DNA of 64,000 nt from Actinostola sp. cb2023 (Eukaryota > Cnidaria > Anthozoa > Actiniaria > Actinostolidae), in NCBI GenBank assembly GCA_033675265.1, contig JAUJYZ010001546.1, positions 984,501 through 1,048,500 on the forward strand. Reading direction: 5' to 3'. How positions within the stretch are numbered: position 1 is the first letter of the stretch; every line of letters begins with the position of its first letter. A program made the translations under genes and the position numbers. Shown piece after piece: positions 7,668 to 61,802 of the stretch. The notes beneath the pieces are model-generated. The model did not search any database. It saw only the letters and a list, made by a program, of their open reading frames with translations, and was not told where the DNA came from.

Positions 7668-8260
7668 TTCAGTGAAGGTCTGGTAGAATACGCGGAGTGC
7701 GGAGTGCGGAGTGCGGAGTGCGGAGTCACGTTAGAAAATCATGGCGTGGTAGACTCCGCGTTTTCTACCAAAGTTGAAAACGCGGAGTCCTAAAAAATGA
7801 AATGAAAAAACTGTTTGAAAAGACCGTCCTTTTCACATGGGAACCAGTTACACGTCACAGTCACACGCTGTCATTCGATGTCAATCTTAAATCAGTTTCG
7901 AACAATGGAATGTAGAACTAACTACATAAATTAGAGCACCGAGGTAGTGAATGCTGCATTCCCGCTGCATTGTCCTATCATCTTGGATCACTGGAAATGG
8001 TACGCCGTCAGCATATTTCACTATCTATCTACGTGATATTCAGGTGAGTTTACTACAAATGTTGATTTCTTTACTGTATTAAACGTAGTGCTTGTAGAAC
8101 ACAATTTCCGGGACATGACGTCATGCAGATATGAAATAGTAGACCGTGATTTGATCTCTTGATACTTCAAGGTAGGAATATCGGCAGCTAGGTGCGGATT
8201 TAGGGGATGCAGGGCGCTAACGTAGGGAGGGTGGGGCACGGGGGTCACGTGCCACCCTAA

Positions 8261-8451
8261 ATTTGCTCCGCATAGAAATAAATAAATTTGCTCCGCATAG
8301 AAATAAATAAATTTGCTCCGCATAGAAATAAATAAATTTGCTCCGCATAGAAATAAATAAATTTGCTCCGCATAGAAATAAATAAATTTGCTCCGCATAG
8401 AAATAAATAAATTTGCTCCGCATAGAAATAAATAAATTTGCTCCGCATAGA
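8261..8451 (+). repeat. 25-bp minisatellite, 8 copies
   Basis: Eight nearly identical units of GCTCCGCATAG plus AAATAAATAAATTT (25 bp). Because 25 is not a multiple of 3, the array reads open in several frames on the minus strand and produces repetitive pseudo-proteins; these are not genes. Confidence 0.95.
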
Positions 8452-26819: not shown

Positions 26820-26879
<60 letters not shown>

Positions 26880-27196: not shown

Positions 27197-27273
<77 letters not shown>

Positions 27274-27282: not shown

Positions 27283-27312
27283 CATTAATTCCTACAGGCA
27301 TCACTTAGGCAA

Positions 27313-27641
27313 ATGATGGTTGTTGTGTATCTACTGCTTTGGTTGCGTTTCGTTGCTGCAGAGCCGACAATACGAGGTGCCGGCAACGAGATCTTTCCTT
27401 TGCGAACTTCTTCCAACTTGAGGGCCACAGACTTCTGGGAACTCCTCTGAAAAAAGTCGAGGTGAATTCCTTTTTCGATTGTCTTACTGAGTGTAGAACG
27501 AACACACGATGCTTGTCTACAAACATGAACACAACAAGCGATGTCCAAGGTCTGTTCGAGTGTGTGCTTTTGGGTATTGACAAGTACGAATACAAAGAAA
27601 ACTTGACCAAAGTGAAGGGAGTCGACCATTATACCTTGCCG
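27313..27641 (+). pseudogene. Frameshifted duplicate of PAN/Apple exon 1
   Basis: Nearly identical to exon 1 of the gene at 39055. The signal-peptide codons start at ATG 27313/27316 (MVVVYLLLWLRFVAAEP). A 2-bp insertion near 27391 (GAGATCTTTCC against GAGATTTCC) throws the PAN segment out of frame, and the upstream frame ends at a TGA about 45 codons in. The PAN part (FANFFQLEGHRLLGTPLKKV ... CLTEC ... CLSTN ... FECVLLGID) remains open and ends at a preserved CCG|GTAAGATT donor at 27642. No matching EGF or C-terminal exon follows. The duplication extends from about 26738 to about 28020 (against 38941-39680). Probably a dead partial gene copy, unless trans-acting exon use exists. Confidence 0.75.
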
Positions 27642-28764
27642 GTAAGATTATTGAAGTTGTTAAAATGTAAAAGTCAAATATTTTCGATGATAAAGTCATC
27701 TTAGTTCAGGATATAAACAGAGTTTACTGGTCCTGTTTTCCAACTGTTTCTTCCCTGAAAATTAACGTTAAACGTTTAATTTTTATTTTTTTTGGTACGT
27801 ACTGAGTCAGGAGAGGAGTTTTATCTTGACTGATTTTGAATCTTTCGAAACGTATACTTACCGGCAATACTTTCCATTGTCTTCCAGATATCATTAAACT
27901 GTTTCCGCTTTTACTCAAATAACAAACTAGTTTTGCAGAATTAATAAAAATACTTTCCAATGATCCGAAAATCAGTCAAGACCTAATCAGCCTCAGATCT
28001 AGAAGAACTGAGAATTACTATTAACTTTTCTTCTTTCACAACTAGCGGTAGGCACCGGCAGGACACCTACCGCCGGGGATGATGTTATAAAGCTTTGAAT
28101 TTGACATTTAATAACGAAAGTTTAAGAAAATTCATCCGCAAGTTCATTTTTGATAACCTTTCAAGACCGTGAATTCTGCGGTTTTAGCACATTTTTGAGC
28201 TCTCTACCAATGTTCATAGGAATAGTAAATGCTGTTTACCATTACATACTGGCAGCAATCGGTTTGGTGCAGCATGTACTTAGCAAAATACTACGCAAGG
28301 GATGTCTACAAAAACGTGCCGAGAGATACGCCGGACCAGAACTGCATAGTGCGGTGGCTATGGACACTCAATAAAACCTTGACAAAACATGGCGTAGTTA
28401 CACTTTTGTGCCAATGCGTGGCGGACTTCCAAACTTGGTGACATTTTTTCGATTCAGCCTAAATTTGGACCAGAATTTTTCCCGGGTTGCTGTTTCAACG
28501 ATTCACCTAAAACTTCGTTAGTGTTGCCGTGGGGTCGATATAGACTGATTCCGGCAGAGGATTCATAAATATCCCGAGGGACAATTATTATGTAAAAGAA
28601 AATGAAATCGAGATAAAATGTGAACTTGCGAAGTTATAGCCGAGACAATTATTGAAATCCTTTAATATCCATTGAGCCACCTTCATACGAACATACTGTG
28701 ATAGTGTTGATAATTGATGACCAAGAGGCTAGGTACCGCGTACCACTAGCCTCGTGCCGAAGTA
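27642..28764. other. Remnant intron sequence and unassigned DNA
   Basis: Up to about 28020 this parallels the start of intron 1 after 39391. Beyond it, a 55-codon protein-like frame (28275-28441: YYARDVYKNVPRDTPDQNC and so on) has no start or family I recognise. About 28190-28280 resembles 5510-5590. Confidence 0.35.
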
Positions 28765-38637: not shown

Positions 38638-39054
38638 ATTACAGTTTCTTAGCAGAAAATAGTAGCAATGACCACCATTCAGACCGTCCGCCATTTTGAA
38701 AATCCATCTGAGCCCGTTAGAAAAAGAGTCAGCTTTGTGTGTTATACCTATGCGCAGAGGTTCTCTTCTAAAAAGCTCCGAGCATCGTTATAGATTGACC
38801 AATCACGATTGAGCAGTTTCAAATGAAAGTCGCGCATGCGCGGACATTTGGACCAATCAGCATCGGCCTAGAAATGGCTGTTACCAGAGCCACTGACGGG
38901 AGAAGGAACGACCGACCGAGGTGCTCTGGGTACGAGAATGAACTGTTATTAGATTCAACAACCGGCTCATGTGCGCATGTGCACTACTACAGATAGATGA
39001 AATTGAACTGACAGAACCATCTGTACGTAAGTCCTACAGGCATCACGGTTCGTG

Positions 39055-39390
39055 ATGCAGCAAATCATGGTTGTTGTGTATCTATTGCTTTCGTTTGGTT
39101 TCGTTGCTGCAGAGCCGACAATACAAGGTGTCGTTAACGAGATTTCCTTTGCAAACTTCTTCCAACTTGAGGGCCACAGACTTCTGGGAACTCCTCTGAA
39201 AAAAGTCGAGGTGAATTCCTTTTTCGATTGTCTTACTGAGTGTAGAACGAACACACGATGCTTGTCTACAAACATGAACACAACAAGCGATGTTCAAGGT
39301 CTGTTCGAGTGTGTGCTGTTGGGTATTGACAAGTACGAACACAAAGAAAACTTGACCAAAGTGAATGGAGTCGACCATTATACCTTGCCG
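39055..39390 (+). CDS. Exon 1: signal peptide and PAN/Apple-like domain
   Basis: Encodes MQQIMVVVYLLLSFGFVAA and the PAN part (NFFQLEGHRLLGTPL, FFDCLTEC, RCLSTNMN, FECVLLGID, DHYTLP). Ends CCG|GTAAGATT in phase 0. The frameshifted twin is at 27313-27641. Confidence 0.85.
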
Positions 39391-42300
39391 GTAAGATTAT
39401 TGAAAATAGTTTAATATTTATATACAAGACAATTAAGTTTTTAAAAGGTAAAAGTCAAATGTTTTCGATGATAATGTCATCTAAGTTCAGGATATAAACA
39501 GAGTTTACTGGCCCGCAGTCCCGCTGTTTTCCAACTGTTTCTTTCCTGAAAATCAAACGTTAAACGTTGTAGTGGAGTTTTACTTTCCATTGCCTTCCAG
39601 ATCGGTTACTTGTAAAATAAGTAAAAACTGTTTCTGACCTAATCAGCCTCAGATATTGAAGAACTGAGAACTACTATATAATATATCGACCAAACTGACG
39701 GCAACTAAACGCGCGCGCTTGGGGTTAACATTTTTCAACAATGAGCCGTTTATCATGTAATTTCAAAACTCATATGACAAAACATGATTATCATAGCTGG
39801 AAAGAGCTCGATGAAATTAGTAAAAATGTAAAGTTTGGAAAAGATCGCTTCACAAATTGCGAAGATATGAATTTTCAAAAATCGAAATTTTATATCACAA
39901 CAAAACCTTTGGAAATTTATGTTTGGAGGCAACTCTTGCCACCAACAATTAAGTGTCATTGTCTGAGAAAACCGGGCAGAGTTGAAAGATGGGGGTCGGC
40001 CGATTCCTTTCAAATTGCTATCATTTATTACCTATAGGAATAGATTAAGAATGGTCGTATTTAAAGTTTGGTTCAGGCTTTTGCTCGAAAGTTGACCACC
40101 CCCCCCTTGTTTTGCATCAAAATCGCCCTGAAAGACGCTAAAATTTCGGGTCACTTTGGCGCTCTGTAAAACTCATATTACATGATTTTCTATGATACAT
40201 TTAGTTTGGTTGTAATATTTAGCCTATGTAGAGCTGGGTTACATGCAATAATGGCAAATTTTCGAAAAACATCTTATTTTCACTTCGAGTTAAAAGTCAG
40301 TTGTCGACGGCCTTCGGCGGTCGACTAAATTTAAGCCATTTTATGGAGGTCCGTTCTTAAAAGTGCGGCAGTTTATTTTCTTAATTTAGCCATTTTTAAC
40401 AAGTTTATTCTTTCCTTTCTTGATTTCCAAAAACTCTTACTCGGATATTTTCAACGACTTTGCGTGAGCAGCCTCCGACTCTTCAAGGTAATCGGCTCTT
40501 TTCCCGTCAAATTTTGTTTGTTTATCATCAATAAGTCGGACTTGGTTCTTCGTATACTGTCTTTTTAACCGCAAGCCACTCTTTAGTTCTTTAAAAGACC
40601 TTAAAATCTTACAAGAACATGATAAAAGGTAAATAGCTTCGTTTCACACATACTAATTAAGTCAATAAACACTCAGTCAGTCAATTTCAGCAGATTGTGT
40701 GACAGAAGTGTTTGATCGCGATTTTGCCGGGAAAACAAGGGTTTCAAGCTCTCGCTATGTACAACATATTACAATCCAATCAAAAGAAATATATGTATTA
40801 ATGCCTAGATGGATTTATTCAGTAAATATACCATTATTAAACATTTGAGAGTTCGTCCGCAAATCATCATTTAGAATCTGTATGTCAACAGCAACACGTA
40901 CTGAATGAATACTAATTACTTCATTGAACATGTTCATGCAATGACTTTGCAACAATATCGATATTTCTTACAACATTGCCGTGAAATAATCTGCTTCATT
41001 ATCATTAAAATGGAATCAAAATTTTGTATTTGATTTATCACAGAGTAATTCAGGACAATTAATAGTTATTAGTGTTTTAATTTCAAGATTACACAGTCGT
41101 ACAAATGAACGTTACTGAATGGTTACCTGAAATAAATAATTGTTACAATTGTCTCGTGTGTATGAGAAACTCATGTGTTTCACTATGGATATATCGATCA
41201 TTTGTTCGTTTTCATCTGAAAGTTCACGGTGCAGTTCTGTTAGTAGGGTCTGGGCTATACGGGGGCGTGCCGCTGGACAGGGTATCGGTTTTTGACTGGG
41301 TATATAATGTTATGTGAGTCTGTCCTAAACATGGTATGGTAATGAACGATTGTCGTCGGTGATGAATTTTTGTGTACTGTATCAGTAGACCTGCCAGACA
41401 GAAGACAGTATTTTGTCCTTTGTCCTAAAGAGGGTCATAAAATAGAGGGTGTTGTCCTAGACAGGGTGGATATTTTAGTATATATATTTTGTCCTAAACA
41501 GGACCAGGGTTTCAAACCCTCAGCGGCACCCCTTAGTTCCCAAACATGGGTAAAGTGAGTTTTTTAATCTACTAGTCATTAGCTTAGTTTGCTAAGAAAA
41601 AACAAATGGGTACTTTTAGGCCAGTCTCGCGTGAGTTAGACATAACGATAATAGTTTTCACGGTTTTCACGTGAAGGCTGCCACCAGTGCAGCCGAAACG
41701 TCATTTGAACCATTATTTCATTACGCGTAAAAACTGAAAAAACTATTATCGTTAAAGAACACTTATATATTCCTTTGATTTTCAAATGTACAAAACACTG
41801 AACATTACTCTAAAACATGAATTGCTTGTATGTGGTATAAACAGTTAACGATTATGATTTTTATTCCTTTCTTTTCTCATTTTCTGTTTTGGTTATCTGG
41901 ATGGGAGAATGTGGAGGGGAGGGGAGGGGTGATTTCGACGCCGTAAATGGTTGATTTTGGTACTGTACCTTATTTTTAATTTATGCGATTCCGTTATTGT
42001 CAAGAACAGGCGTTAAACCATCTGTAGTTTATAGCAGTTTCTATAGCCTGGCTTTGACTGTAGTGCACCTCTCAAACTCCTCGTGCACGTCTCCCGCCTG
42101 CTCCCTACCCCATCTCCCTCCTCCCTCCCCCCTCTCCCGTCCCGCTTCCCCTTCCCCTTCCTCCTCCTCCCTCCGTTCCCCCTCCTCCTTTCCCCCCCCC
42201 CCCCCCCCCCCCCCCCCTCTAGGGAGCAATGGTGGCCGAGTGGTGAGAGCATTCGCCTCTCATGAAACGCTGTGGTGCCTGGTTCAATTCACGAATCGGG

Positions 42301-45300
42301 CACTTCATGTGAGTTGAGTTTGTCAGTTCGTTCTCTCCCTTGTTTTGAGGGTTTTTCTTCTGGTACTCCGGTTTTCCTCCCTCATTAAAAACGAACTAGT
42401 GAGATGAGCGTTGGGTGTATAGTACATAATAGAGAATGTAGTAAGAAATGAGTGTTGAGAGTCGTGTCCCAAATTAGCAGTAATGCTAGATCGATCGACA
42501 CGTTGAATTAAAAAAAGTAATTTTATTCCAAACACCCTCCTCCCCCTTCCTCGCCCACCGTTCCTCCTTCCCCTTCCCCTCCCCTTTCCTCCCCCAACGC
42601 ACGCTGCAATAGCGCCAGAGATACCACAGGGCCCCCTAATTAATCAATAATTTCACAAAAATGCTAATAAAAGAATAAAAGTAATTATATCGCTTTTTGT
42701 TTTTCTTTGTCACGCGCGCGCGTGGTACACCGCGATACACCGCGCGCGCGCGCGTGATAAAGAAAAATGATGAATGAAACTTGCCTTGTTATGACTTAAA
42801 AACAAAAAAATAAATGCTTTATTCGTGTTTTCTTTGTAGAATAGTTGCAATTGGAATGGTTGTAGAGGAGATATCCAGCGGAGACGTCGGAAGATCTAGT
42901 TAAATATATATTTGCTTTATTTACCGTGATTAAAATTATATTTTGAACATTTCACAACTGCAGTGTATTCAGTTTGAATAATAAATGAGTTAGAGACTTC
43001 TAGTTCGTGCTTTACCGGCAAATAGACGCACGCGCTGGCTGTAGAATGAACGAGAATTCAAATACTGCTCGAGGCGTAGCCGAGTGCAGTATGAAGAATT
43101 TCGAGTTCATTCTACAGCCAGCAAGTGCGTCTATTTGCCGGTAAAGCACTCACATCAGTCTCTAACCCTTAAACAAAAAACAATATAATGTAATATAATT
43201 TGTAATTTTAGCTGGAAACGTTCATTATGCCGAGTTTTAATCAAACAAAGCTTTTTTGGCGCAGATCCAGACCGGTTTACGCTGTTTTCCGGAGAACGGT
43301 CAATTTTTTCAAAGTAAGAGTAATATATGATATAGCTCTCTTGAATGTTTAATTTATTCATAAAAAGGTACAAAAACTGCCGGTTCGGGAAACGGTCACA
43401 TCTTTTCCTGGATCTGAGACCTGCATGCGGCGTTTTCAAACGTCTCCACTTTTGAAAGCGTTTTCGAAAACCTCCGTTTTCATCTATGTTTTCATTTTGA
43501 TTGCGCAACACATTTTCGTGTTGCAGGTTGCAAAACTTTGTTGCACAAAGTAGAAGCTCTTTCTACTTCATGCAACAAAGTTTTGCAATCTGCAACACCG
43601 AAACATTTAATTTGTTGCGCGACAAGTTGCACGAACGATGGTAATACGAGAAACATTGCTCTGCAACTTGCAACGCAACAATCTGAAAATGTTGCGCGAC
43701 AAGTTGCACGATTTTGTTGCTCGTATTACCGCACCTTAAAAACAAAAAAATAAATGCTTTATTCGTGTTTTCTTTGTAGAATAGTTGCAATTGGGAATGG
43801 TTGTAGAGGAGATATCCAGCGGAGACGTCGGAAGATCTAGTTAAATATATATTTGCTTTATTTACCGTGATTAAAATTATATTTTGAACATTTCACAACT
43901 GCAGTGTATTCAGTTTGAATAATAAATGAGTTAGAGACTTCTAGTTCGTGCTTTACCGGCAAATAGACGCACGCGCTGGCTGTAGAATGAACGAGAATTC
44001 AAATACTGCTCGAGGCGTAGCCGAGTGCAGTATGAAGAATTTCGAGTTCATTCTACAGCCAGCAAGTGCGTCTATTTGCCGGTAAAGCACTCACATCAGT
44101 CTCTAACCCTTAAACAAAAAACAATATAATGTAATATAATTTGTAATTTTAGCTGGAAACGTTCATTATGCCGAGTTTTAATCAAACAAAGCTTTTTTGG
44201 CGCAGATCCAGACCGGTTTACGCTGTTTTCCGGAGAACGGTCAATTTTTTCAAAGTAAGAGTAATATATGATATAGCTCTCTTGAATGTTTAATTTATTC
44301 ATAAAAAGGTACAAAAACTGCCGGTTCGGGAAACGGTCACATCTTTTCCTGGATCTGAGACCTGCATGCGGCGTTTTCAAACGTCTCCACTTTTGAAAGC
44401 GTTTTCGAAAACCTCCGTTTTCATCTATGTTTTCATTTTGATTGCGCAACACATTTTCGTGTTGCAGGTTGCAAAACTTTGTTGCACAAAGTAGAAGCTC
44501 TTTCTACTTCATGCAACAAAGTTTTGCAATCTGCAACACCGAAACATTTAATTTGTTGCGCGACAAGTTGCACGAACGATGGTAATACGAGAAACATTGC
44601 TCTGCAACTTGCAACGCAACAATCTGAAAATGTTGCGCGACAAGTTGCACGATTTTGTTGCTCGTATTACCGCACCTTTAAAAACAAGAAAATAAATGCT
44701 TTATTCGTGTTTTCTTTGTAGAATAGTTGCAATTGGAATGGTTGTAGAGGAGATATCCAGCGGAGACGTCGGAAGATCTAGTTAAATATATATTTGCTTT
44801 ATTTACCGTGATTAAAATTATATTTTGAACATTTCACAACTGCAGTGTATTCAGTTTGAATAATAAATGAGTTAGAGACTTCTAGTTCGTGCTTTACCGG
44901 CAAATAGACGCACGCGCTGGCTGTAGAATGAACGAGAATTCAAATACTGCTCGAGGCGTAGCCGAGTGCAGTATGAAGAATTTCGAGTTCATTCTACAGC
45001 CAGCAAGTGCGTCTATTTGCCGGTAAAGCACTCACATCAGTCTCTAACCCTTAAACAAAAAACAATATAATGTAATATAATTTGTAATTTTAGCTGGAAA
45101 CGTTCATTATGCCGAGTTTTAATCAAACAAAGCTTTTTTGGCGCAGATCCAGACCGGTTTACGCTGTTTTCCGGAGAACGGTCAATTTTTTCAAAGTAAG
45201 AGTAATATATGATATAGCTCTCTTGAATGTTTAATTTATTCATAAAAAGGTACAAAAACTGCCGGTTCGGGAAACGGTCACATCTTTTCCTGGATCTGAG

Positions 45301-48300
45301 ACCTGCATGCGGCGTTTTCAAACGTCTCCACTTTTGAAAGCGTTTTCGAAAACCTCCGTTTTCATCTATGTTTTCATTTTGATTGTTTGTCAGTGGAATG
45401 CGCTATATAAGAATTGCACATATTATTATTATTAGTGGACGATCGCTAAAAACGGATGCAAAAAAGTATGCAATTTTCAAAACGAAAACATGGACACATG
45501 GACTCCCCTCTCTTAATACCTTCCTAGACCACCTCAACTTCCAATCACCCCACCATAAAGTTCCAACATACACTATCACTATTTTGTTGCTCGATTTCCT
45601 GGACACCACCATCTACCTCCACAAGGACGGCCAACTCCTATCCACCCTTTACACCAAACCCACCGATAGCACACTCCTCCTCCACCATTCCTCATACCAC
45701 CCCGACAGATGTTAAAAACAGGCACAATCTACAGCCAAGCCCTTCGATACAGACGTCTCATCACCGATGATGATCTTCTACTAAAACAACTCCACCGACT
45801 CAGACTCATCCTCCTAACCAGGGGTTGAATAAACACCTCCATCACCAAAGAATTCCACAAAATCCTCCCTACCTCACAACACTCCCTTCTATTCCCCCCC
45901 ACTCCAGGCCCTGAACCCCCACCCCCACCACGTAGACATCAACGAGAATTCATCATCCCTGCTCATCACATCATCACACCCTCCCCCCATCTCCAACATC
46001 CTAAGGTTACAATGGAACATCCTGTCACGTGACCCGAAACTCTCCCCCCTATATTCCCAGATCCACCCCTCACAGCCTTCCAACGAGTCTCTAACCCTTA
46101 GAGACCTACTAGTCCACACCAACTTCACATCACAACACCAAACACATCACAATCCCTAGAAACCGAACAATCTCAACCCTAGCATCGGAGCCGAAACAGA
46201 ACTACTCCTAGCCATCCAAAAGCCAAGTCACATTGGAATGTCGGGAAACGGACACACCACCACTATAAGAATTACCACTACGCAAACCACTTGGATGATC
46301 AAAATTATGTACCACCACTACCCACCCATGTTTTCTCACAAATCTACCTGCCACACCAGAACTACTATAACTACAGAATACCAACCAACACCGTCAACCT
46401 ATTCCACAGCAAGCAAAGCAAGAACAAAACAGCAACACCACACACCCGATCAACAAACCACGAACACTCCATTCACCATTACAGAGAGAAAAGGAAAACC
46501 ACTTATGAAACATTAAACCGAAGAATATCCCATCAACCCGCTGTCCGTCACAGCTAGCCCACAATTTTTTGCTCTCATGAACGCACCTAATGTTCCCATG
46601 TCTAGGAATTCTACATTTTATTAAGTGTATGGTCACCCTTAGAAATAATGTAATTCATTAGTCTCCACTTCAGTTATTATCACAGCTTTATTAAATATAT
46701 ATTCCAGCATTTCTTTTGGTTACTTTAGCCACCGTGGCCTTATTTTGGAGGTTACTTACAAACACCACACATATGACACTGTTCCACTTCCCATCTGTTT
46801 GCCATTCCACCCACCTTGCCCACCTGATTCACACCCTGGAACCCTGGACACTGGCTAATACTTCATTGGCGGCCATGAACTAAATGCCCTGCCATTCTAC
46901 ACACAAGGTGACCTATTTTACATTTACAAAGCAATGGTTCTTCACTAAAGTTACCAATCATAAGGTCTAATGGTCACTATCTGGACCACACCAATACATA
47001 TACAAAAATTTTACATAATCAAGCTATTTTTGTCTACCTCTACAACAAGAACAACATTAATTTTCACTTGGAAGCCACAGCACCAGCAAATCCGAACTGA
47101 ACCTACCTTTTTCTAAAATAGAGTGAACAATCCACTATACCGTCCTCTGTGAAAACCACAAACAATATAAAGATATTACAAAAAACCGTTCGGGGAACGA
47201 AGCTTCCTATTATACCACACTGATACTATCATCTACGACAAGATTTAAATATCAACAGCAAAAAACTGGAGTTCAATTTCATATTCACTCTTAATGGGAT
47301 CTATTTGCTACTCCAACCATTTTTACTCCATCGACAAACCATTGTTACAAACTACGGCCCACACCTAAGCCGCTGAAAAAAACATTCGCCGTCCTGACCG
47401 GGACACCACAACTGTTGAATTTGCAACACTACTTGAACGTTATTGATCGCTATATGAAAATTGGTCTGCAACTTAACAAACACCAACAAAACCACACATA
47501 CCTCCAATGCTTTTTCACCATCTAATGTACAGTATAGGCACATATTGAACAATACAATCGTCTGAATATTTCTTTAACGTGTTTACCTTTGTCTTACACT
47601 ACAGCCTTCGATAATTTTATCCGCATTATTCGAGCGATCGCTCCATCCATATTCCGGCTCCACGTCCCACCTTACCGTCCTTGCAATGACATACCCATCT
47701 TACAGCCGTGTAACACCACTATTTTCCCCGTTCAACCCCTGCCTGGACAGGTTATTAACTCATAAACGTCAACAATATTCTGCTCGTGTGTATAGGCCGC
47801 CATTGCCACCAACGTTCAAATGCCCCGCCTCCCATACGCCCCCGCGAACCCCAAACGTCACACACAGGAAACCCAACAACCCTCCCCAGTCCCCCCTATA
47901 TAAAGAACCGCCACGCATACTCCGCCCTTTCTAATAGTATCTCACCCAAGAACACAAGTCACGGCTCCGATGTACTCAAAAAATTCCCGCTCTAAAGGTA
48001 CCATATTAATATCCACAACATCATCGCAACCACGCTTTGCGCATCCACTTTTTTCCGCCCCGGGGTCCCGGGTCTCGCCTGCTTTCCCGCACGCCACGCT
48101 AGCACATCAGCGCCCTAACCAGTCAAATTCCCCTCCCCCTCTGTCTTTTGCCATGGCGTAGGGTGTAGCTTGCAGGCCTGTCAAGTATCAATCTTTTCTT
48201 GATCTTTGAATCACGCTGGGACTTCTAAACCCCTGAAGATTAGAGTCCCAGTGGGCACTGGACAGAGAGGCTCCCACTCTCTAACTCCCCTTGGATTGTG

Positions 48301-49085: not shown

Positions 49086-52000
49086 TTTTTGGATTTCCAC
49101 CACCCCTTGGATCACTGTGGATTCAACATAACTTACATTCCTACATAGCTACATACCTCCAGTTCTTCCCTCCTTTCTTCTCTTCCTTCTACGTTCCATC
49201 CCCCCACAAATTCACTCTCTCACTCCCAGTACCCATATCCCAATGCCATCTTCCACCAAACCCCCCCCCCCCCCCCCACTGGAAACATAAACTTCCCCCC
49301 CCCCCCCCCCCCCCCCAAAAACACCCACACACACCTCTACTACCCCCACCAACGCTGGTCCGAATACCTTGCTAAACCTATCGATCTTGGCTTAATCAGT
49401 CGATAATCAAAAAAGCATACACCCCCCTCTCTCTTTCTCTCCCTCACAAACTTTCCACCCCACACAAAAAAACTAAACAAAACCCTTCCCCACTCCCCCA
49501 CATAAAGCCAACATTAACCCCCTCTCTACTTCCTTAACATCTATCTTTCTAACCTTCCTTCCTCCCTTACACTCTATTTTATTTTATTTTATTTACCCAT
49601 CTATTTATCTATGTTTTTTTTTTATTTATTTTATTTATCAGTTTTCATTCCATCTTTTATTCCATTATCAATTTATCTATTTTATTTTATTTACTTCATA
49701 GATTACTTTATTTACCGTATATATATATATATAAATATTGAATTTATTCATTCATTCATTCAGTCAGTCATTCTCCATTCATTCATTCATTCATTCATTC
49801 ATTCATTCATTCATCATTCATCACTCATTCATTCATTCATTTATTTATCTATTTATTTATTTATTTATTTATTTTTAATTTAATTTATTTATTTAGCTTT
49901 TTTTTTTTTATCCTTGATCTATTTTATACTAATTTATTTTTCATTCATTCATACCGGTTTAAATTTTAAGTTTATAATTTCTAATTCTATTAATTTCTTT
50001 TTCCATTACTTACATCCTCTAACATCACTTGTGTCAAACCACCTATGTCTCTTTCTTTCTCTACAGCAATTCAATCCAGCTACACTTACAAACCACGTTT
50101 GTTGACTTCTAACTTCCTCACCAAAACAGCCACTTCCCTTCCTTTACACCGACGCCCCCCATAAAACACCCACACACACCTTTACTACCCCCACAAACGC
50201 TGGTCCGAATACCTTGCTAAACCTGTCGATCTGGCTTAATCAGTCGATAATCAAAAGTGTTGCAGGTTGCAAAACTTTGTTGCACAAAGTAGAAGCTCTT
50301 TCTACTTCATGCAACAAAGTTTTGCAATCTGCAACACCGAAACATTTAATTTGTTGCGCGACAAGTTGCACGAACGATGGTAATACGAGAAACATTGCTC
50401 TGCAACTTGCAACGCAACAAACTGAAAATGTTGCGCGACAAGTTGCACGATTTTGTTGCTCGTATTACCGCACCTTTAAAAACAAAAAAATAAATGCTTT
50501 ATTCGTGTTTTCTTTGTAGAATAGTTGCAATTGGAATGGTTGTAGAGGAGATATCCAGCGGAGACGTCGGAAGATCTAGTTAAATATATATTTGCTTTAT
50601 TTACCGTGATTAAAATTATATTTTGAACATTTCACAACTGCAGTGTATTCAGTTTGAATAATAAATGAGTTAGAGACTTCTAGTTCGTGCTTTACCGGCA
50701 AATAGACGCACGCGCTGGCTGTAGAATGAACGAGAATTCAAATACTGCTCGAGGCGTAGCCGAGTGCAGTATGAAGAATTTCGAGTTCATTCTACAGCCA
50801 GCAAGTGCGTCTATTTGCCGGTAAAGCACTCACATCAGTCTCTAACCCTTAAACAAAAAACAATATAATGTAATATAATTTGTAATTTTAGCTGGAAACG
50901 TTCATTATGCCGAGTTTTAATCAAACAAAGCTTTTTTGGCGCAGATCCAGACCGGTTTACGCTGTTTTCCGGAGAACGGTCAATTTTTTCAAAGTAAGAG
51001 TAATATATATATAGCTCTCTTGAATGTTTAATTTATTCATAAAAAGGTACAAAAACTGCCGGTTCGGGAAACGGTCACATCTTTTCCTGGATCTGAGACC
51101 TGCATGCGGCGTTTTCAAACGTCTCCACTTTTGAAAGCGTTTTCGAAAACCTCCGTTTTCATCTATGTTTTCATTTTGATTGTTTGTCAGTGGAATGCGC
51201 TATATAAGAATCGACATATTATTATTATTAGTGGACGATCGCTAAAAACGGATAAAAAAGTATGCGTTTTCAAACGAAAACGGATTAGTGTGGACGGGGC
51301 CGGCTCAGTGCGTGGACTGACGCAATATGAGACTGGACATCGACTGGACAGTGGAGAGGTTCACTATTATACGTCCAGTTATGTCTGTAACTGAACACAC
51401 TAGTTTGTTGATTTGTTGTATCAAATCATATTTAACTCACTGGATTACAAGATATTACAATACTATTGTATCAGCAATCCAATGCTACTTTAACGGTGAA
51501 TACAGCCAAATTTAAATTAGTGATGCGTGGCCATGTTCAATGAAGTAATTAGTATTCATTTAGTGTCGCTGTTGACATACAGATTCTAAATGATGATTTG
51601 CGGACGAACTCTCAAATGTTTAATAATGGTATATTTACTGAATAAATCCATCTAGGCATTAATACATATATTTCTTTTGATTGGATTGTAATATGTTGTA
51701 CATAGCGAGAGCTTGAAACCCTTGTTTTCCCGGCAAAATCGCGATCAAACACTTCTGTCACACAATCTGCTGAAATTGACTGACTGAGTGTTTATTGACT
51801 TAATTAGTATGTGTGAAACGAAGCTATTTACCTTTTATCATGTTCTTGTAAGATTTTAAGGTCTTTTAAAGAACTAAAGAGTGGCTTGCGGTTAAAAAGA
51901 CAGTATACGAAGAACCAAGTCCGACTTATTGATGATAAACAAACAAAATTTGACGGGAAAAGAGCCGACTACCTTGAAGAGTCGGAGGCTGCTCACGCAA

Positions 52001-55000
52001 AGTCGTTGAAAATATCCGAGTAAGAGTTTTTGGAAATCAAGAAAGGAAAGAATAAACTTGTTAAAAATGGCTAAATTAAGAAAATAAACTGCCGCACTTT
52101 TAAGAACGGACCTCCATAAAATGGCTTAAATTTAGTCGACCGCCGAAGGCCGTCGACAACTGACTTTTAACTCGAAGTGAAAATAAGATGTTTTTCGAAA
52201 ATTTGCCATTATTGCATGTAACCCAGCTCTACATAGGCTAAATATTACAACCAAACTAAATGTATCATAGAAAATCATGTAATATGAGTTTTACAGAGCG
52301 CCAAAGTGACCCGAAATTTTAGCGTCTTTCAGGGCGATTTTGATGCAAAACAAGGGGGGGTGGTCAACTTTCGAGCAAAAGCCTGAACCAAACTTTAAAT
52401 ACGGCCATTCTTAATCTATTCCTATAGGTAAAATTTGAAAATTCATATCTTCGCAATTTGTGAAGCGATCTTTTCCAAACTTCACATTTTTACTAATTTC
52501 AACAAGCTTGTTCCAGCTATGATAATCATTTTTTTGTCCTATGAGTTTTGAAATTACATGATAAACCCGGCCCTCATTGCTTATATATAACTTCGCAAAT
52601 TGTACTCAATTTTAAAAACTGAAAAGACTGTGACTACAGCTACCAGAATGCTTTGCGCATCTTCTTTTGTGAGACAATTAGTACCCTTTGTCTTAGTGAA
52701 TTGCAAATACTTTTCTGTTTCGGAATTTGTACATAGCAAAACCATTGAAATAAAAGCGAACATTATTAGATCAAGTTGATAAAAATTCATGTAACTAGGC
52801 ATTGTAAAAACACAGTATTTTTGGGCGATGAAATGTTAAAACTTCTCAGCAATAATTCTGCACAGTAGGCCGTCCATACAGATGTCCCGTGGAGGTGTCC
52901 CGTCTATAGAATGTATCATATTCTTTTACTTGCGTTTTGCATATCAATTGTTGTATAGTTTAGCAATTGCATGAGCTCACCCCAAGAGACCATTATTTAA
53001 TAAAACGGTTTTCCGTGTTATATAGCCTGATCTAAACACGCGTGATGTTGGGAGAACACGAGAGAAGCGTAGAAAATCACTTTCTACATCGTCTTATGGA
53101 GGGGTCCCTTATAATGAAATACTGGAGCGAATCGGTCCACTGCACTAATAACAGTCGCTCAAAAGTGTGACGTCACCATTTAATAAAATTAGGAATTCGA
53201 TTACGTTTGATAGAATATGGGAACGAGGTAATAATTCGAAATGAAAGGTTTTCACTGAACTATGTGTATTTTATTATCTAGTCAAAGTGTGAAGAGAAAC
53301 CATGCAAGCATAATGGCAAGTGTATCCCTGTGTATGCGAACAACAGCTTTGACTGTGAATGTCTTCCAGGAACCAAAGGGAAACTCTGCCAGACACAAGG
53401 TATGAGGAGAATGAGCCGAATGTTTGGGGGAGCAAAGGGGGAGGACTTGAAAGACGTCAGGATCTATTTTAGGAGGCTTTTTGTGCTCGATGCCCACCCT
53501 TCCACATTAGTCACATTGAGTCATTCAACCCCTTTCGCTCCGTTTGCTCTGCATTTTCATAAATCTGGATGATTCTCTTTTGTTAGATTTTCGCAGCTGT
53601 GCTCAGCGATTAGCCGCTGGCTACAAGAACAGTGGTGTCTATGAAATCAAAGCTCCTGACAATACGGCCCTGCGAGTGTCCTGTAGTCATGATAACGGAA
53701 GTGGTAAGATAATTTAATTTGAATTTTGCTATTATTCAGTCTCATTGTATATGAGACATATGGACAGAAACTCACAGAGAAACAGTCAAATCAGTTGCAT
53801 GATTCAGTGTGTCGTTGTTAGGGTCGACGATCGATGGTGTACAAGGCCTTTATCAGTTGATTGTGTCATTGTTAGGGTCGGGACGATGGTGTACAAGGCC
53901 TTTATCAGTTGATTGTGTCATTGTTAGGGTGGAAGATGGTGTACAAGGCCTTTATCAGTTGATTGTGTCATTGTTCAATGGTGTACAAGGCCTTTATCAG
54001 TTGATTGTGTCATTGTTAGGGTGGACGATGGTGCACAAGGCCTTTATCAGTTGATTGTGTCATTGTTCGATGGTGTACAAGGCCTTTATCAGTTGATTGT
54101 GTCATTGTTCAATGGTGTACAAGGCCTTTATCAGTTGATTGTGTCATTGTTAGGGTGGACGATGGTGCACAAGGCCTTTATCAGTTGATTGTGTCATTGT
54201 TAGGGTGGACGATGGTGTACAAGGCCTTTATCAGTTGATTGTGTCATTGTTAGGGTGGACGATGGTGTACAAGGCCTTTATCAGTTGATTGTGTCATTGT
54301 TAGGGTGGACGATGGTGTACAAGGCCTGTTAGGGTGGACGATGGTGTACAAGGCCTTTATCAGTTGATTGTGTCATTGTTAGGGTCATTGTTATTGGGTG
54401 GACGATGGTGTACAAGGCCTTACAAGGCCTTTATCAGTTGATTGTGTCATTGTTAGGGTGGACGATGGTGTACAAGGCCTTTATCAGTTGATTGTGTCAT
54501 TGTTAGGGTGGACGATGGTGTACAAGGCCTTTATCAGTTGATTGTGTCATTGTTAGGGTGGACGATGGTGTACAAGCCTTTATCAGATTTGATTGTGTCA
54601 TTGTTAGGGTGGACGATGGTGTACAAGGCCTTTATCAATTGGCCTTTATCAGTTGATTGTGTCATTGTTAGGGTGGACGATGGTGTGGTGTATCAATTGT
54701 GTCTTTATCAGTTGATTGTGTCATTGTTAGGGTGGACGATGGTGTACAAGGCCTTTATCAGTTGATTGTGATTGTTCATTGGGTGGACGATCAAGGCCTT
54801 TATCAGTTGATTGTGTCATTGTTAGGGTGGACGAAGGCCTGGACGATTATCAGGCCTTTATCAGTTGATTGTGTCATTGTTAGGGTGGACGATGGTGTTA
54901 CAAGGCCTTTATCAGTTGATTGTGTCATTGTTAGGGTGGACGATGGTGTACAATGCCTTTATCAGTTGATTGTGTCATTGTTAGGGTGGACGATGGTGTA

Positions 55001-58000
55001 CAATTGCCTTTATCAGTATCAGTTGATTGTGTCATTGTTAGGGTGGACGATGGTGTACAAGGCCTTTATCAGTTGATTGTGTTGATTGTGTCATTGTTAG
55101 GGTGGACGATGGTGTACAAGGCCTTTATCAGTTGATTGTGTCATTGTTAGGGTGGACGATGGTGTACAAGGCCTTTATCAGTTGATCGATTGTGGTTGTA
55201 GGGTGGACGATGGTGTACAAGGCCTTTATCAGTTGATTGTGTCATTGTTAGGGTGGACGATGGTGTACAAGGCCTTTATCAGTTGATTGTGCTGTCATTG
55301 TTAGGGTGGACGATGGTGTACAAGGCCTTTATCAGTTGATTGTGTCATTGTTAGGGTGGACGATTGGTGTACAAGGCCTTTATCAGTTGATTGTGTCATT
55401 GTTAGGGTGGACGATGGTGTACAAGGCCTTTATCAGTTGATTGTGTCATTGATTGTGTCATTGGGTAGGGTGGACGATGGTGTTCAAGGCCTTTATCAGT
55501 TGATTGTGTCATTGTTAGGGTGGACGATGGTGTACAAGGCCTTTATCAGTTGATTGTGTCATTGTTAGGGTGGACGATGGTGTACAAGGCCTTTATCAGA
55601 TGATTGTGTCATTGTTAGGGTGGACGATGGTGTACAAGGCCTTTATCAGTTGATTGTGTCATTGTTAGGGTGGACGATGGTGTTCAAGGCCTTTGATCAT
55701 TGTTTGATCATTGTTTGATCAGTTGATTGTGTCATTGTTAGGTCAGTTGATTGTGTCATTGTTAGGGTGGACGATGGTGTACAAGGCCTTTATCAGTTGA
55801 TTGTGTCATTGTTAGGGTGGACGATGGTGTTCAAGGCCTTTATCAGTTGATTGTGTCATTGTTAGGGTGGACGATGGTGTACAAGGCCTTTATCGATGGT
55901 GTACAAGGCCTTTATCAGTTGATTGTGTCATTGTTAGGGTGGACGATGGTGTACAAGGCCTTTATCAGTTGATTGTGTCATTGTTGTGGACGATGGGTAC
56001 AAGGCCTTTATCAGTTGATTGTGTCATTGTACAAGGCCTTTATCAGTTGATTGTGTCATTGTTAGGGTGGACGATGGTGTTCAAGGCCTTTATCAGTTGA
56101 TTGTGTCATTGTTAGGGTGGACGATGGTGTTCAAGGCTGTTAGTGGTCAGCCTCTATCGCAAGGACCTGGCAAGTTGTGGACGTCCAGCTCTTTACTTGA
56201 GTCGCCGTTATCTGACAGCAGAAAACATTACAAGAATCGCATAGTAGAGCAATGGGACGCGTTCAAGCCAAACAAGGTTGGTAATTGTTAGTGATGTTAA
56301 GGTAATGGGGATGACACTCCAGTGTAGAAAAGTACGAAGAGTGTCGTCAGTATGTGGATGTCCGGTCACTGTTCACAGGGAGCATGGGTGGGAAGAGTGG
56401 GAAGGGTGGGAAATGGGTGGGAAAATGGGTGGCAAGGGTAGGAAGGGTGGGAAGGGTGGCTAGCGAACCTCCTTTATTTACTTCTCTTGTGAAGTGAATT
56501 AATTAATCTGAATGGGAAGGTGCGGCTGATAGTTTATCACTAATAATGGTCTGCATGAGCAAATTATGTCTTTGAATGACTTAGTTTATTTATTTTTCAT
56601 AGTTTTTTTAGATTAGACTAGAATAGTATATATAAATATGTTATTCTTATTTTATTGTTTATTTTTGTTACGTTATTTGTATTTATGTTGTTAGTGTCCT
56701 AGTTCAATAATAGTCTATTCAGGCTAAATACACAGACACTCAAATAACAAATAAAGCCATTATTATTATGGCGCCTGTACGGTCGTTAGCCAGTCCGTGA
56801 TGTTTTGTGTTGTCGACGGCAGTCATTCATTCTGATCAAAACAGCTATCGATATACACGTAATTCCCTCCCACCCTCCCCCTTTGTTCTAGTAGCATATT
56901 GCACAACTAGTAATAAGGTAATAATAATATTATGATAAATAGATAGTATAGCACAAGCAGATAGTTACAGTTATAAGCAGCCAATAGCGGTTGCATATAT
57001 GGACATCATGAACTCTGACAATCTCAGCAATGGCAGGAGATGGACAATGTCAACTATATTTTTATCTTCATGCTCAATGATGTAGCAGAGCTTTATTTTA
57101 GTATGTTTTAATAAAATCACGGGTTGGGGATTAGGTGCTCCCATACTGGTCACTTTTGCCCCATAGACTTATGGTTTACTATATAGCTGGGAATTATCAC
57201 CCCTCTGACTCAGTTGCCATGGGAACAATGAGGTAAGGGGCTGTATGTGATTTACACCCTTATCACCCTCAGTAGGGGTTGTACGTGAGTTACACCCTTA
57301 TCACCCTCAGTAGGGGTTGTATGTGATTTACACCCCTCAGCGACCCAGGGGGTTATCATCGGTAGGGGTAGTATGTGACTTACACCCCGGCGACCCGAGG
57401 GATACCACTGGAGAGAGGATTATCACCTCTCTTTGTCATGCACTGACCAGTATGCCAATTATGCGGGGAGCGTGGATCTGCGGGTAGCAGATGGAGACCT
57501 AATTCCCATTCCCCATTACTCCACAAAACTGTGTTGTTATGTCTAATGGGTTGGAAGTATTAAATATATTATAACCTCGTAATTATTGTTTTCGTATTTG
57601 ACCAGGTTCGAGTGTCGTTGTACAGAAAAACTAAAGAAGTTCTGCGGTTGATTTTCAATGGCATCGGATCCAACAAGATCAACTGGTTTGCTTTCGAACG
57701 TGTCTTGTCAAGTCCATGGACAGACCTCGCCTCGCAGCCCAAAAACTACTTTACCATAGCCGGTCATGTCACACCTGCTGTTGCCCGTACTTTCTTCATC
57801 AACAGCATGTACACTGGCTGTGAAAATGATCGTGGATGGATGATGCTGTCCGAAAAGCCCGCATGTGATTACGAAAAGAGAATGGTTCAATTTTCGATAT
57901 TCTACTCTCCAGGCCCCACTCGTGTTCGCTACTTTAACTCAGGTTAGTTAATTCTCGATTCACTAGCTGAAAAAAACGCGCGCCCTTCATACCTTGGACA

Positions 58001-58548
58001 TTCATTGGACATTCATTGGACATTCATTGGACATTCATTGGACATTCATTGGACATTCATTGGACATTCATTGGACATCAATATTTTGGACATTTTCAAA
58101 GAATTTCCAAGGTTTAGAAATGAAATACACTGTAAACAGTCCCTCTTTTCCCTCCAGAATCAGTTGCGTCGAGTTTCCAAGGTTTTGGATATTTCCAAAG
58201 AATTTCCAAGGTTTAGAAACGAAATACACTGTAAACAGTCCCTCTTTTCCCTCCAGAATCAGTTGCGTCGAGTTTCCAAGGTTTTGGATATTTCCAAAGA
58301 ATTTCCAAGGTTTGAAGGGCTTGCGTTTTTCCATCAGTGTTTATTAGTGACTACAACACGAGGAGATTGTTCGTTGTCTGTATTGGAGGTAGGCTCAGTA
58401 TCCAGCCGCTGGGGAGAGTATCGCGGGCGCACGAAACCCCAACGGCTGGATACTGAGCCTATATTGGAGGTACACCGTGTATAATTTGTTTTTCTTCTTC
58501 TCAGATTCCAAGAATGTAGCCGATATGATGGCCATTTATGTGCTCTAG
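39055..58548 (+). CDS. Secreted PAN/Apple-EGF-GGWT-domain protein, six exons
   Basis: Exons 39055-39390, 53282-53399, 53587-53703, 56116-56276, 57606-57942 and 58505-58548 join with consistent phases (0,1,1,0,1) to 1113 nt, 370 residues plus stop. Residues 1-21 form a signal peptide (VVVYLLLSFGFVAA then EP). A PAN/Apple-like module with four cysteines follows, then a six-cysteine EGF domain, then a C-terminal domain beginning SCAQRLAAGYKNSGVYEI and GGWTMVFKAVSG, with CENDRGWMML near the end. The order resembles cnidarian uncharacterised skeletal organic matrix protein 5-like proteins (from memory). Probably extracellular, adhesion or matrix. ATG 39067 is an alternative start. Intron 1 is full of transposons and intron 3 carries a remarkable minisatellite. 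Confidence 0.85.
41248..41560. mobile_element. MITE with internal TGTCCTAAACAGGGT-type repeats
   Basis: Loosely inverted ends around GGGGCGTGCCGCTG and CAGCGGCACCCC. Between them the word TGTCCTAAA.AGGGT recurs at least five times (41319, 41400, 41422, 41453, 41490). This resembles the CCCTAAAAGGTAC words in the poly(G) element at 26819-27282. Confidence 0.5.
41641..41755. mobile_element. Short element with TAACGATAATAGTTTT inverted ends
   Basis: TAACGATAATAGTTTT near 41645 is inverted at 41740-41755. A stem-loop GGCTGC / GCAGCCGAAACGTC sits in the middle (41687-41718), of a kind common near retroelement 3' ends. Confidence 0.45.
42087..42220 (+). repeat. Pure pyrimidine tract with terminal C run
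   Basis: About 130 bases almost only C and T, ending in about 25 C (to about 42217), directly before a SINE. A second C/T tract follows at 42531-42596. It could form triplex DNA. Confidence 0.85.
42228..42385 (+). mobile_element. tRNA-derived SINE
   Basis: The A box TGGCCGAGTGG and B box GGTTCAATTC are 40-50 bases apart in a tRNA-like head. The body follows with CACTTCATGTGAGTTGAG and CTGGTACTCCGGTTTTCC. This body is typical of cnidarian SINEs as I recall them. RNA polymerase III type; non-autonomous. Confidence 0.75.
42696..42770. repeat. CG-alternating hairpin
   Basis: TTTTTCTTTGTCACGCGCGC and its inverse CGCGCGTGATAAAGAAAAA flank an 18-base loop. The alternating CG stretches could adopt Z-DNA; they are also unusually CpG-dense for this AT-rich region. 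Confidence 0.7.
42797..45490 (+). repeat. Tandem array of 940-bp units, copies 1-3
   Basis: Two full units (about 42797-43736, 43737-44678) and a third truncated at 45385 are virtually identical (single-base differences). Each contains a hairpin GAGACTTCTAGTTCGTGCTT...AGTCTCTAAC and a second foldback rich in GTTGCGCGACAAGTTGCA. Copy 3 passes into an end segment (TTTGTCAGTGGAATGCGC...) that recurs after copy 4. Reading frames inside are repeated artefacts. Confidence 0.9.
45500..46150 (+). pseudogene. Penelope-like reverse transcriptase thumb fragment
   Basis: Protein-like blocks in shifting frames: FLDHLN, FLDTTIYLHKDGQLLSTLYT, KPTDSTLLLHHSSYHP; then GTIYSQALRYRRLITDDDLL and RLRLILLTRG; then ISNILRLQWNILSRDPKLSP and ESLTLRDLLVH. 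This order (FLD.TIY, LY.KPTD, HP, QALR.RR, RGY, LRDLLV) is that of Penelope-like reverse transcriptases. Several frameshifts and stops make it dead. No GIY-YIG endonuclease was seen. Confidence 0.7.
49317..50256 (+). repeat. About 95-bp direct repeat at 49317-49415 and 50163-50256
   Basis: AACACCCACACACACCT, ACGCTGGTCCGAATACCTTG and AATCAGTCGATAATCAAAA are shared in order with few differences. It may be the duplicated 3' end (pLTR-like) of the Penelope-type element. Confidence 0.75.
50257..51303 (+). repeat. Copy 4 of the 940-bp unit with end segment
   Basis: Begins mid-unit at GTGTTGCAGGTTGC, runs through a full unit start (50491 on) to 51181, and then into the end segment closing with GTGTGGACGGGGCC near 51303, which looks like a hAT-type terminus. 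Confidence 0.8.
53282..53399 (+). CDS. Exon 2: EGF-like domain
   Basis: Acceptor TTATTATCTAG; codes SKCEEKPCKHNGKCIPVY then NSFDCECLPGTKGKLCQT. The six cysteines have canonical EGF spacing. Donor CAAG|GTATGA, phase 1. Confidence 0.9.
53587..53703 (+). CDS. Exon 3: start of the C-terminal domain
   Basis: Acceptor TTTGTTAG. Phase 1 in and out. Codes DFRSCAQRLAAGYKNSGVYE then ALRVSCSHDNGSG, like the opening of fibrinogen-related and related cnidarian matrix domains (SCA...G.Y.I). Donor AGTG|GTAAGA. Confidence 0.85.
53811..56115 (+). repeat. 50-bp minisatellite made of the intron 3 acceptor plus exon 4 start, about 45 copies
   Basis: The unit is GTGTACAAGGCCTTTATCAG TTGATTGTGTCATTGTTAGG GTGGACGATG (50 bp). 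The last copy merges into the real acceptor and exon 4: GTCATTGTTAG|GGTGGACGATGG. Each full unit therefore contains a 3' splice site and codons for GGWTMVYKAFIS before a stop. Units with GTGTTCAAGG (Phe, as in the true exon) lie only in the last 700 bp, nearest the exon. Units near the left end often lack the AG (CATTGTTCAATGG). Confidence 0.9.
56116..56276 (+). CDS. Exon 4: GGWT segment
   Basis: Acceptor GTCATTGTTAG at 56105-56115. Spliced from phase 1 it reads GGWTMVFKAVSGQPLS, then KLWTSSSLLESPLSD, KHYKNRIVEQWDAFKPNK. Donor AAG|GTTGGT, phase 0. Its first 20-odd bases and the preceding acceptor are the last member of the tandem array in intron 3. Confidence 0.8.
56395..56461 (+). repeat. 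G-rich (GGGTGGGAA)n tract in intron 4
   Basis: About ten GGG runs within 67 bases, with G-quadruplex potential on the sense strand, 120 bp after the exon 4 donor. Confidence 0.75.
57236..57400 (+). repeat. About 38-bp tandem, four diverging units, intron 4
   Basis: CAGTAGGGGTTGTACGTGAG TTACACCCTTATCACCCT is repeated with increasing divergence to the right. Confidence 0.75.
57606..57942 (+). CDS. Exon 5: main part of the C-terminal domain
   Basis: Acceptor TTTGACCAG. Codes VRVSLYRKTKEVLRLIFNG, KINWFAFERVLSSPWTDL, YFTIAGHVTPAVARTFFI, MYTGCENDRGWMMLSEK and CDYEKRMVQFSIFYS. Donor TCAG|GTTAGT, phase 1. Confidence 0.85.
57995..58311 (+). repeat. 12-bp x8 and 99-bp x2 tandem repeats in intron 5
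   Basis: (TTGGACATTCAT) repeats at 57995-58078, then two 99-bp units starting GGTTTAGAAA at 58111 and 58210, plus a partial third at 58309. The 12-mer array reads open as an IHWTFIGHSLD repeat protein; this is intronic. Confidence 0.9.
58390..58461. mobile_element. 72-bp MITE, 9-bp TSD, just upstream of exon 6
   Basis: The ends TAGGCTCAGTATCCAGCCG and CGGCTGGATACTGAGCCTA are inverted; the flanks TATTGGAGG (58381-58389 and 58462-58470) are exact. It sits 43 bp before the exon 6 acceptor, close to where a branch point would lie. Confidence 0.85.
58505..58548 (+). CDS. Exon 6: last 14 codons and stop
   Basis: Acceptor TTCTTCTTCTCAG; with the phase-1 base it codes DSKNVADMMAIYVL and TAG at 58546-58548. 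The ending resembles the ADVM.IF/YVL close of fibrinogen-like and cnidarian matrix domains. Confidence 0.85.
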
Positions 58549-60316: not shown

Positions 60317-61802
60317 CATTCTCGTACCCAGAGCCCGCTCGTCATTTGGTTTGTCGCTGGCTCTGGGAATCCCTGAAATTTTAGCGAATTTCATTGGCTG
60401 ATGAAATCAACAATGACTGATCGTATTTGATTGGTTCATGAGATCAACAAAGATTCAAACTTGCAAGGCGAACGAAAGGAATGACAGCGACGGTTGTATT
60501 TTCATACAATGGTATTGAATATTAAGCCGTTATTGAATTATAAAGCTATGGAAATGAGAGTGACTGTGTAGACATAAATTGATCTGAATTCGTAAAGGGA
60601 GATCTAACAATACATAAATTATAAAAGTAAAGTAACGGCTACAGACACAATCGATCGTACTCGCTTTGACTTCAAAGGAATATTTTTATAATTCAAGAGA
60701 AACAATAACAAAGCGGAAGACAGGAAGGTTCACATGCAAGATTATATTAGAACATGTATTTATCGTCCAGCCTTTACCGCAACAGAGCCAGAGAAGAACC
60801 GGTGATGAACGTCGAAGGGATTTTAAACGGCTACACGAAGATAAATGCACGGCTTGTGTACTTGTTAGTTTGAATATTCAAACCAACGTAAATACTACGT
60901 AGCCAGTAGACTCTTCCACAGTACCCGCTCTCAGCGGTCTTTAGTATGAGCATGCGCTCTGACGACTTGGTCGTCAAAATTTGACGACCGAGCAACAGGG
61001 TTTCCCAGAGCCAGCGACAAACCAAATGACGAGCGGGCTCTGGGTACGAGAATGGGATTCCCAGAGCCAGCGACAAACCAAATGACGAGCGGGCTCTGGG
61101 TACGAGAATGTGGGAAACCCTGCATACCCTGTTGCTCGGTCGTCAAATTTTGACGACCAAGTCGTCAGAGCGCATGCTCATACTAAAGACCGCTGAGAGC
61201 GGGTACTGTCTACTGGCTACGTAGTATTTTAATACGTTGGTTTGAATATTCAAACTAACAAGTACACAAGTTTGTACATTTATCTTCGTGTAGCCGTTTA
61301 AAATCCCTTCGACGTTCATCACCGGTTCTTCTCTGGCTCTGTTGCGGTAAAGGCTGGACGATAAATACATGTTCTAATATAATCTTGCATGTGAACCTTC
61401 CTGTCTTCCGCTTTGTTATTGTTTCTCTTGAATTATAAAAATATTCCTTTGAATACTCGAAGCGAGTACGATCGATTGTGTCTGTAGCCGTTACTTTACT
61501 TTTATAATTTATGTATTGTTAGATCTCCCTTTACGAATTCAGATCAATTTATGTCTACACAGTCACTCTCATTTCCATAGCTTTATAATTCAATAACGGA
61601 ACCATTGTATGAAAATACAACCGTCGCTGTCATTCCTTTCGTTCGCCTTGCAAGTTTAATTTGAATCTTTGTTGATCTCATGAACCAATCAAATACGATC
61701 AGTCATTGTTGATTTCATCAGCCAATGAAATTCGCTAAAATTTCAGGGATTCCCAGAGCCAGCGACAAACCAAATGACGAGCGGGCTCTGGGTACGAGAA
61801 TG
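60317..61802. mobile_element. 1.5 kb palindromic foldback element, CATTCTCGTACCCAGAGC ends
   Basis: The two halves (60317 to about 61045, and about 61060 to 61802) are reverse complements, with a small nested copy of the terminus (CCAGAGCCAGCGACAAACC) at the centre. The termini match those of the long-TIR elements at 9838 and 31097 for 18 bases, then differ. It appears to be a related family reduced to two TIRs back to back. Confidence 0.8.

Follow-up and report, generated by a model that had tools for sequence, protein, structure and literature searches.

A 50-bp minisatellite of 3' splice-site copies in front of exon 4 of a predicted PAN/EGF/fibrinogen-like gene from Actinostola

Minisatellites that copy intron/exon boundaries

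The amphioxus 'mirages' are minisatellite-like tandem repeats of intron/exon boundaries, found in the globin genes BflGb6 and BflGb9 and in Adh3 (PMC3087553). For example, BflGb6 carries 6 and 3 units of 150–160 bp on two haplotypes (PMC3087553). Data on Adh3 and RT-PCR of the globins suggest that these repeats leave regular splicing undisturbed (PMC3087553; PMC3902484). The troponin C and PGBD5 genes provide further cases of boundary repeats (PMC3902484).

Related arrangements are documented in human. The CBS allele 844ins68 is a 68-bp duplication of the intron 7/exon 8 junction that places two sites in competition, the more distal copy being strongly favoured; the sites are termed donor sites there, although the title of the work cited for them speaks of 3' splice site selection (PMC2630376). 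This allele resembles the array described below by its duplicated junction and its distal choice and differs from it in being one duplication and no array. CBS also carries a 31-bp VNTR, c.1444_1467+7(16_21), with 16–21 copies, which appears to cross the exon end into the intron (PMC2630376). Like the array, this VNTR appears to be a repeat across an exon end; unlike the array, it lies on the donor side, as its name indicates. It is said to affect enzyme activity, as the title of a 2001 work by Lievers has it. Finally, internal tandem repeats at exon-intron boundaries alter gene structure in human segmental duplications, where 27 intron modifications were reported; these repeats are shorter than the array, with units of 30 bp and 4 repeats on average (PMC2812944).

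The array described here, from a window of 64,000 nucleotides of Actinostola sp. cb2023, looks, judging from its sequence, like a very large member of the amphioxus-type class. Like the mirages, it is a tandemly duplicated intron/exon boundary in which many, but not all, repeats retain splice signals. Unlike BflGb6, it comprises 47 units of only 50 bp, and unlike the amphioxus repeats, it appears to reside in a different animal group. Among the open-licence papers listed, titles and opening lines of abstracts showed no coral case and no acceptor array, while wider searches yielded the amphioxus and human cases. Splicing among tandemly copied boundaries is a question known from amphioxus, more extreme here and not wholly new. 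If confirmed, the locus would add to the amphioxus and human examples of boundary minisatellites another one, with more copies.

The host gene and its array of acceptors

On the + strand of the window, six exons joined across GT-AG introns give a 366-residue frame that ends at a natural stop (Table 1). In a Pfam search of the 366-residue protein, PAN_1 and EGF exceed the cut-offs and Fibrinogen_C matches residues 150–198 under its cut-off (E 0.0069). The exon 3/4 junction, at residue 187, lies inside this sub-threshold match, and fibrinogen, angiopoietin and ficolin chains match weakly over it (E about 0.005–0.25, among the 60 of 98 PDB matches listed). These fibrinogen-type matches spanning the junction support GWTMVFK as the predicted start of exon 4. 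The junction codon is split G|GG and the protein reads ...NGSGWTMVFK. The original prediction was right in placing the acceptor and the first codons of exon 4 in the repeat unit, its GGWTMV having one G too many. PAN/EGF/fibrinogen-like proteins such as the predicted product are presumably similar to the skeletal matrix proteins of corals.

Exon 1 and its flank (39028-39568) have a second copy at 27286-27776, with 85.6% DNA identity. At the protein level its PAN part reaches 93%, with a frame change between the signal peptide and the PAN part. Since tblastn found no second copy of any other exon in the window, save short exon 4 pieces in the array, this copy looks like a partial or decayed duplicate. 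Runs of 57 G (26822-26878) and 73 C (27199-27271) stand just before it and possibly mark an assembly trouble spot.

Table 1. Coordinates of the gene model, the array and its sub-features in the window
Feature	Position	Strand	Remarks
Exon 1, coding part	39067..39390	+	signal-peptide-like start, PAN domain; donor GTAAGA
Exon 2	53282..53399	+	EGF-like domain
Exon 3	53587..53703	+	fibrinogen-like stretch begins; phase 1 end; donor GTAAGA
Intron 3	53704..56115	+	2412 nt, mostly array
50-bp minisatellite	53808..56137	+	47 aligned units
38 decoy acceptors	53822..56066 (first exonic base, first and last)	+	all lead to premature stops
Units 4, 6, 7	53950..54125	+	common 8-bp loss removing AG; unit 4 = unit 7
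3' zone with every unit of the exon-like GTGTTCAAGG variant	55428..56137	+	units 33, 37, 40, 46 and functional 47
Functional last unit (47)	56088..56137	+	acceptor 56115|56116 preserves the reading frame, runs on into exon 4
Exon 4	56116..56276	+	161 nt; donor GTTGGT
Exon 5	57606..57942	+	
Exon 6, coding part	58505..58548	+	natural stop

As had been claimed from the first inspection of the DNA, the gene's 3' splice site does stand in many copies in front of exon 4, and these occupy most of intron 3. The span then proposed, 53811..56160, is corrected to 53808-56137. Each full unit straddles the boundary, with the last 28 nt of intron 3 followed by the first 22 nt of exon 4, and the authentic boundary closes the array, the last unit entering exon 4 in frame. 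The 47 units were counted by wraparound alignment to the consensus, in which the borders 12/13, 38/39 and 41/42 depend on scoring. In place of the earlier figure of about 45 decoys, 46 units precede the functional one, and 38 of them keep TAG|GG.

Exact identity to the functional acceptor extends over -20..+3 in 31 decoys, over -20..+15 in 24 and over -28..+22 in three. The acceptor 23-mer of exon 4 occurs 32 times on the + strand of the window, where those of the gene's four other acceptors occur once each. The strength of the local signal is therefore no guide to the right acceptor, and since the same signal is present 32 times, the choice among those sites must come from position or wider context.

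None of the 38 decoys leads to the natural stop. Their products read exactly GWTMVYKAFIS* in 17 cases, an F variant in three, an H variant in two and other tails in 16; any use of a decoy would thus truncate the protein, as anticipated in the original prediction. The premature stops precede the last exon junction by 513 to 2651 nt, a distance that, by the usual rule, would make the decoy products targets of nonsense-mediated decay (NMD).

Choice of the last acceptor

The explanation proposed here, to which a probability of roughly 0.55 can be given as a whole, combines the origin of the array with the way in which cells would choose among its acceptors. The intron 3/exon 4 boundary, as its sequence attests, has expanded as a mirage-type minisatellite that fills most of the intron with 3' splice-site copies. 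A segment with its start within the intron and its end at nt 22 of exon 4 would have been duplicated and then subjected to tandem turnover. The functional acceptor would be picked by exon definition: no other copy lies as close to the donor of exon 4, and no other leads straight into the remainder of that exon, whereas the regular unit lacks a good donor and exons starting at most decoys would be over-long. Most likely the array has no regulatory role and is simply tolerated.

Exon definition is the simplest mechanism for the acceptor choice and the favoured one. With each unit further upstream, exon 4 would lengthen by about 50 nt; only one of the 38 decoys would define an exon of at most 300 nt, and four an exon of at most 500 nt. 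On an approximate weight matrix, the five donors of the gene score 1.9 to 4.8, and no GT in the regular unit exceeds -1.5. Several observations count against this mechanism. On the same matrix, the donor of exon 4 ranks lowest among those of the gene, and three GTs of irregular units score 3.1 (at 55742), 2.2 (at 54683) and 1.1 (at 55465), so that some decoys have a donor-like site behind them. The first decoy creates an intron of 118 nt and would therefore be favoured by intron definition. The decoy nearest to the functional site (56066) matches it exactly over -28..+22 at a distance of only 50 nt, so that exon length alone hardly separates the two. Cassette use of array pieces is not likely for the regular units but may occur with the three irregular units that hold the better GTs. 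Recursive (zero-exon) splicing was considered and discarded, AGG|GTGGAC of the regular unit scoring -1.5 against 1.9–4.8 on that matrix.

A protein-based alternative is that the array silences itself: through cooperative binding to dozens of UAGGGU sites, an hnRNP A1-like protein would cover the decoys, while SR proteins bound to enhancers of exon 4 would keep the last site open. Every acceptor, UUAG|GGU, contains UAGGGU, a SELEX-defined high-affinity hnRNP A1 site (UAGGGA/U; PMC9634572), and TAGGGT occurs 39 times in the array region, the functional site included, versus 6 times elsewhere on the + strand. In APOB exon 26, tandem silencers suppress many pseudo splice sites, and cooperative propagation of hnRNP A1 is discussed as one option (PMC3640928). 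However, the TAGGGT count follows from the copying of one acceptor, the functional site bears UAGGGU as well, and the protein evidence is mammalian. Self-silencing is an unlikely account. Selection of the acceptor by RNA structure, which would conceal the decoys and expose the last site, is barely credible and was rejected. The units are predicted to be able to fold with the acceptor in a hairpin loop, but their folding does not surpass that of shuffled sequences (z -0.25 to -0.68 for three AG stretches, +0.71 for one AG-less unit), and the functional site ranks 4th or 11th of 37 TTAGGG sites in predicted accessibility, depending on the window size used.

Other alternatives concern the role and the reality of the array. 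It could act as an expression rheostat, some transcripts using decoys, stopping early and going to NMD, with the length of the array setting the output. The early stop in all 38 decoy products, well before the last exon junction, is the one observation here that agrees with such a role, raised in the original prediction; however, a 50-bp unit with an in-phase stop yields early stops without any selection, the AGs bear no sign of selection keeping or removing them, and amphioxus repeats of the boundary type appear not to disturb splicing (PMC3087553), so that a rheostat is very unlikely. That assembly or consensus errors created part of the array, or of its copy number and indel-rich units, is also quite unlikely. 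Many units differ through irregular indels rather than substitutions, and the amphioxus draft genome did hold an aberrantly assembled BflGb6 repeat (PMC3087553). Against an artefact, 16 of the 47 units are exact copies of two variants, the variants are ordered (units 4-5 = 7-8; TTC only at the 3' end) and the flanks of the array join an intact gene model.

The 32 identical local signals make acceptor strength a constant, so that position, exon context and silencing can be told apart at this locus as causes of splice-site choice. The array looks like a good natural setting in which to test how cells decide between identical splice sites. A broader proposition is tentative and on balance unlikely: with 31 acceptors identical to the used one, only distance to the donor, exon context or array-wide UAGGGU silencing can decide, and array length, probably polymorphic, could set splicing fidelity and the output of the gene.

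Unit variants and history of the array

The exon-like TTC variant is limited to the 3' end, as had been noticed at the outset: its decoy units are 33, 37, 40 and 46, all within the 3' 15 units, and permutation of their mean position gives p = 0.006, in a test made after the pattern had been noticed. The chance of all four of 46 falling at unit 33 or beyond is likewise p = 0.006, with a limit read off the data. This location fits growth or exchange at the exon side. Units 46 and 47 are identical from 34 nt before the acceptor to 22 nt after it.

The AG-less units (4, 6, 7, 20, 38, 42, 44 and 45) do not show the 5' clustering initially ascribed to them: they average position 25.75 of 46, and a permutation test for 5' bias gives p = 0.70. 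One and the same 8-bp loss recurs in units 4, 6 and 7. Moreover, unit 4 is the same as unit 7, and unit 5 the same as unit 8 (which ends at 54175), so that a single event, subsequently copied, probably accounts for the 5' group; the identity of units 4-5 with 7-8 reflects a block duplication. AG loss beside the exon affects 3 of the 6 nearest units versus 5 of the other 40 (Fisher p 0.056, with a grouping chosen after the data had been seen), a weak excess.

Intact 8-mers are present in 34–37 copies across the AG, in 32–38 over the exonic part and in 40–45 over the greater portion of the intronic part. Some of the lower intactness of the AG and exonic parts relative to the intronic one is explained by the shared deletion and the TTC variant. 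The idea of selection against upstream acceptors is not borne out, AG loss having no 5' bias and the AG 8-mers being about as intact as the exonic part. Counts of events, made without deduplication and with units 1, 12, 13, 38, 42 and 45 omitted, give 8 substitutions and 26 indels in the intronic part and 15 and 25 in the exonic part, figures on which no conclusion is based.

Growth from the exon side, suggested together with that selection, is partly upheld: the place of the TTC variant speaks for it, whereas the distance between units does not rise with their spacing (Mantel r 0.05, p 0.25), neighbours being no more alike than distant units, which lends no support to orderly growth at one end. 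With regard to concerted evolution in which array ends escape homogenisation, the first unit is diverged and the TTC variant is local, but this lack of a rise with spacing stands beside them; all three thirds of the array lie at comparable distances from the consensus (5.9, 4.8 and 5.3). DNA hairpins as drivers of instability receive no support (z -0.47 and +0.47). Microhomology at the irregular junctions averages 1.0 nt versus 0.71 expected, on the 16 of 70 greedy junctions that were usable, a difference from which nothing is concluded. In a search for relatives in collections not meant for animal genomes, a protein scan with exon 5 gave 43 pattern stretches in genome contigs and 18 in viral contigs, none of them confirmed, and the unit DNA pattern had no match in viral contigs.

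Other repeats occur in the gene and its surroundings. Introns 4 and 5 hold further minisatellites (56386-56459, 57236-57335 and 57994-58313), none of which crosses a splice site of the gene model. Intron 1 contains near-identical repeats (42795-45385 and 50257-51281; 99.0–99.9% in pieces over 700 bp), two of them in tandem with an offset of about 940 bp and one apart; the inverted repeats inside them point to a mobile element. Two 56-bp tandem copies (60998-61110) lie within what appears, by eye, to be a long inverted repeat (60998-61800), and a 25-bp unit is repeated 7.8 times with 100% matches at 8258-8452.
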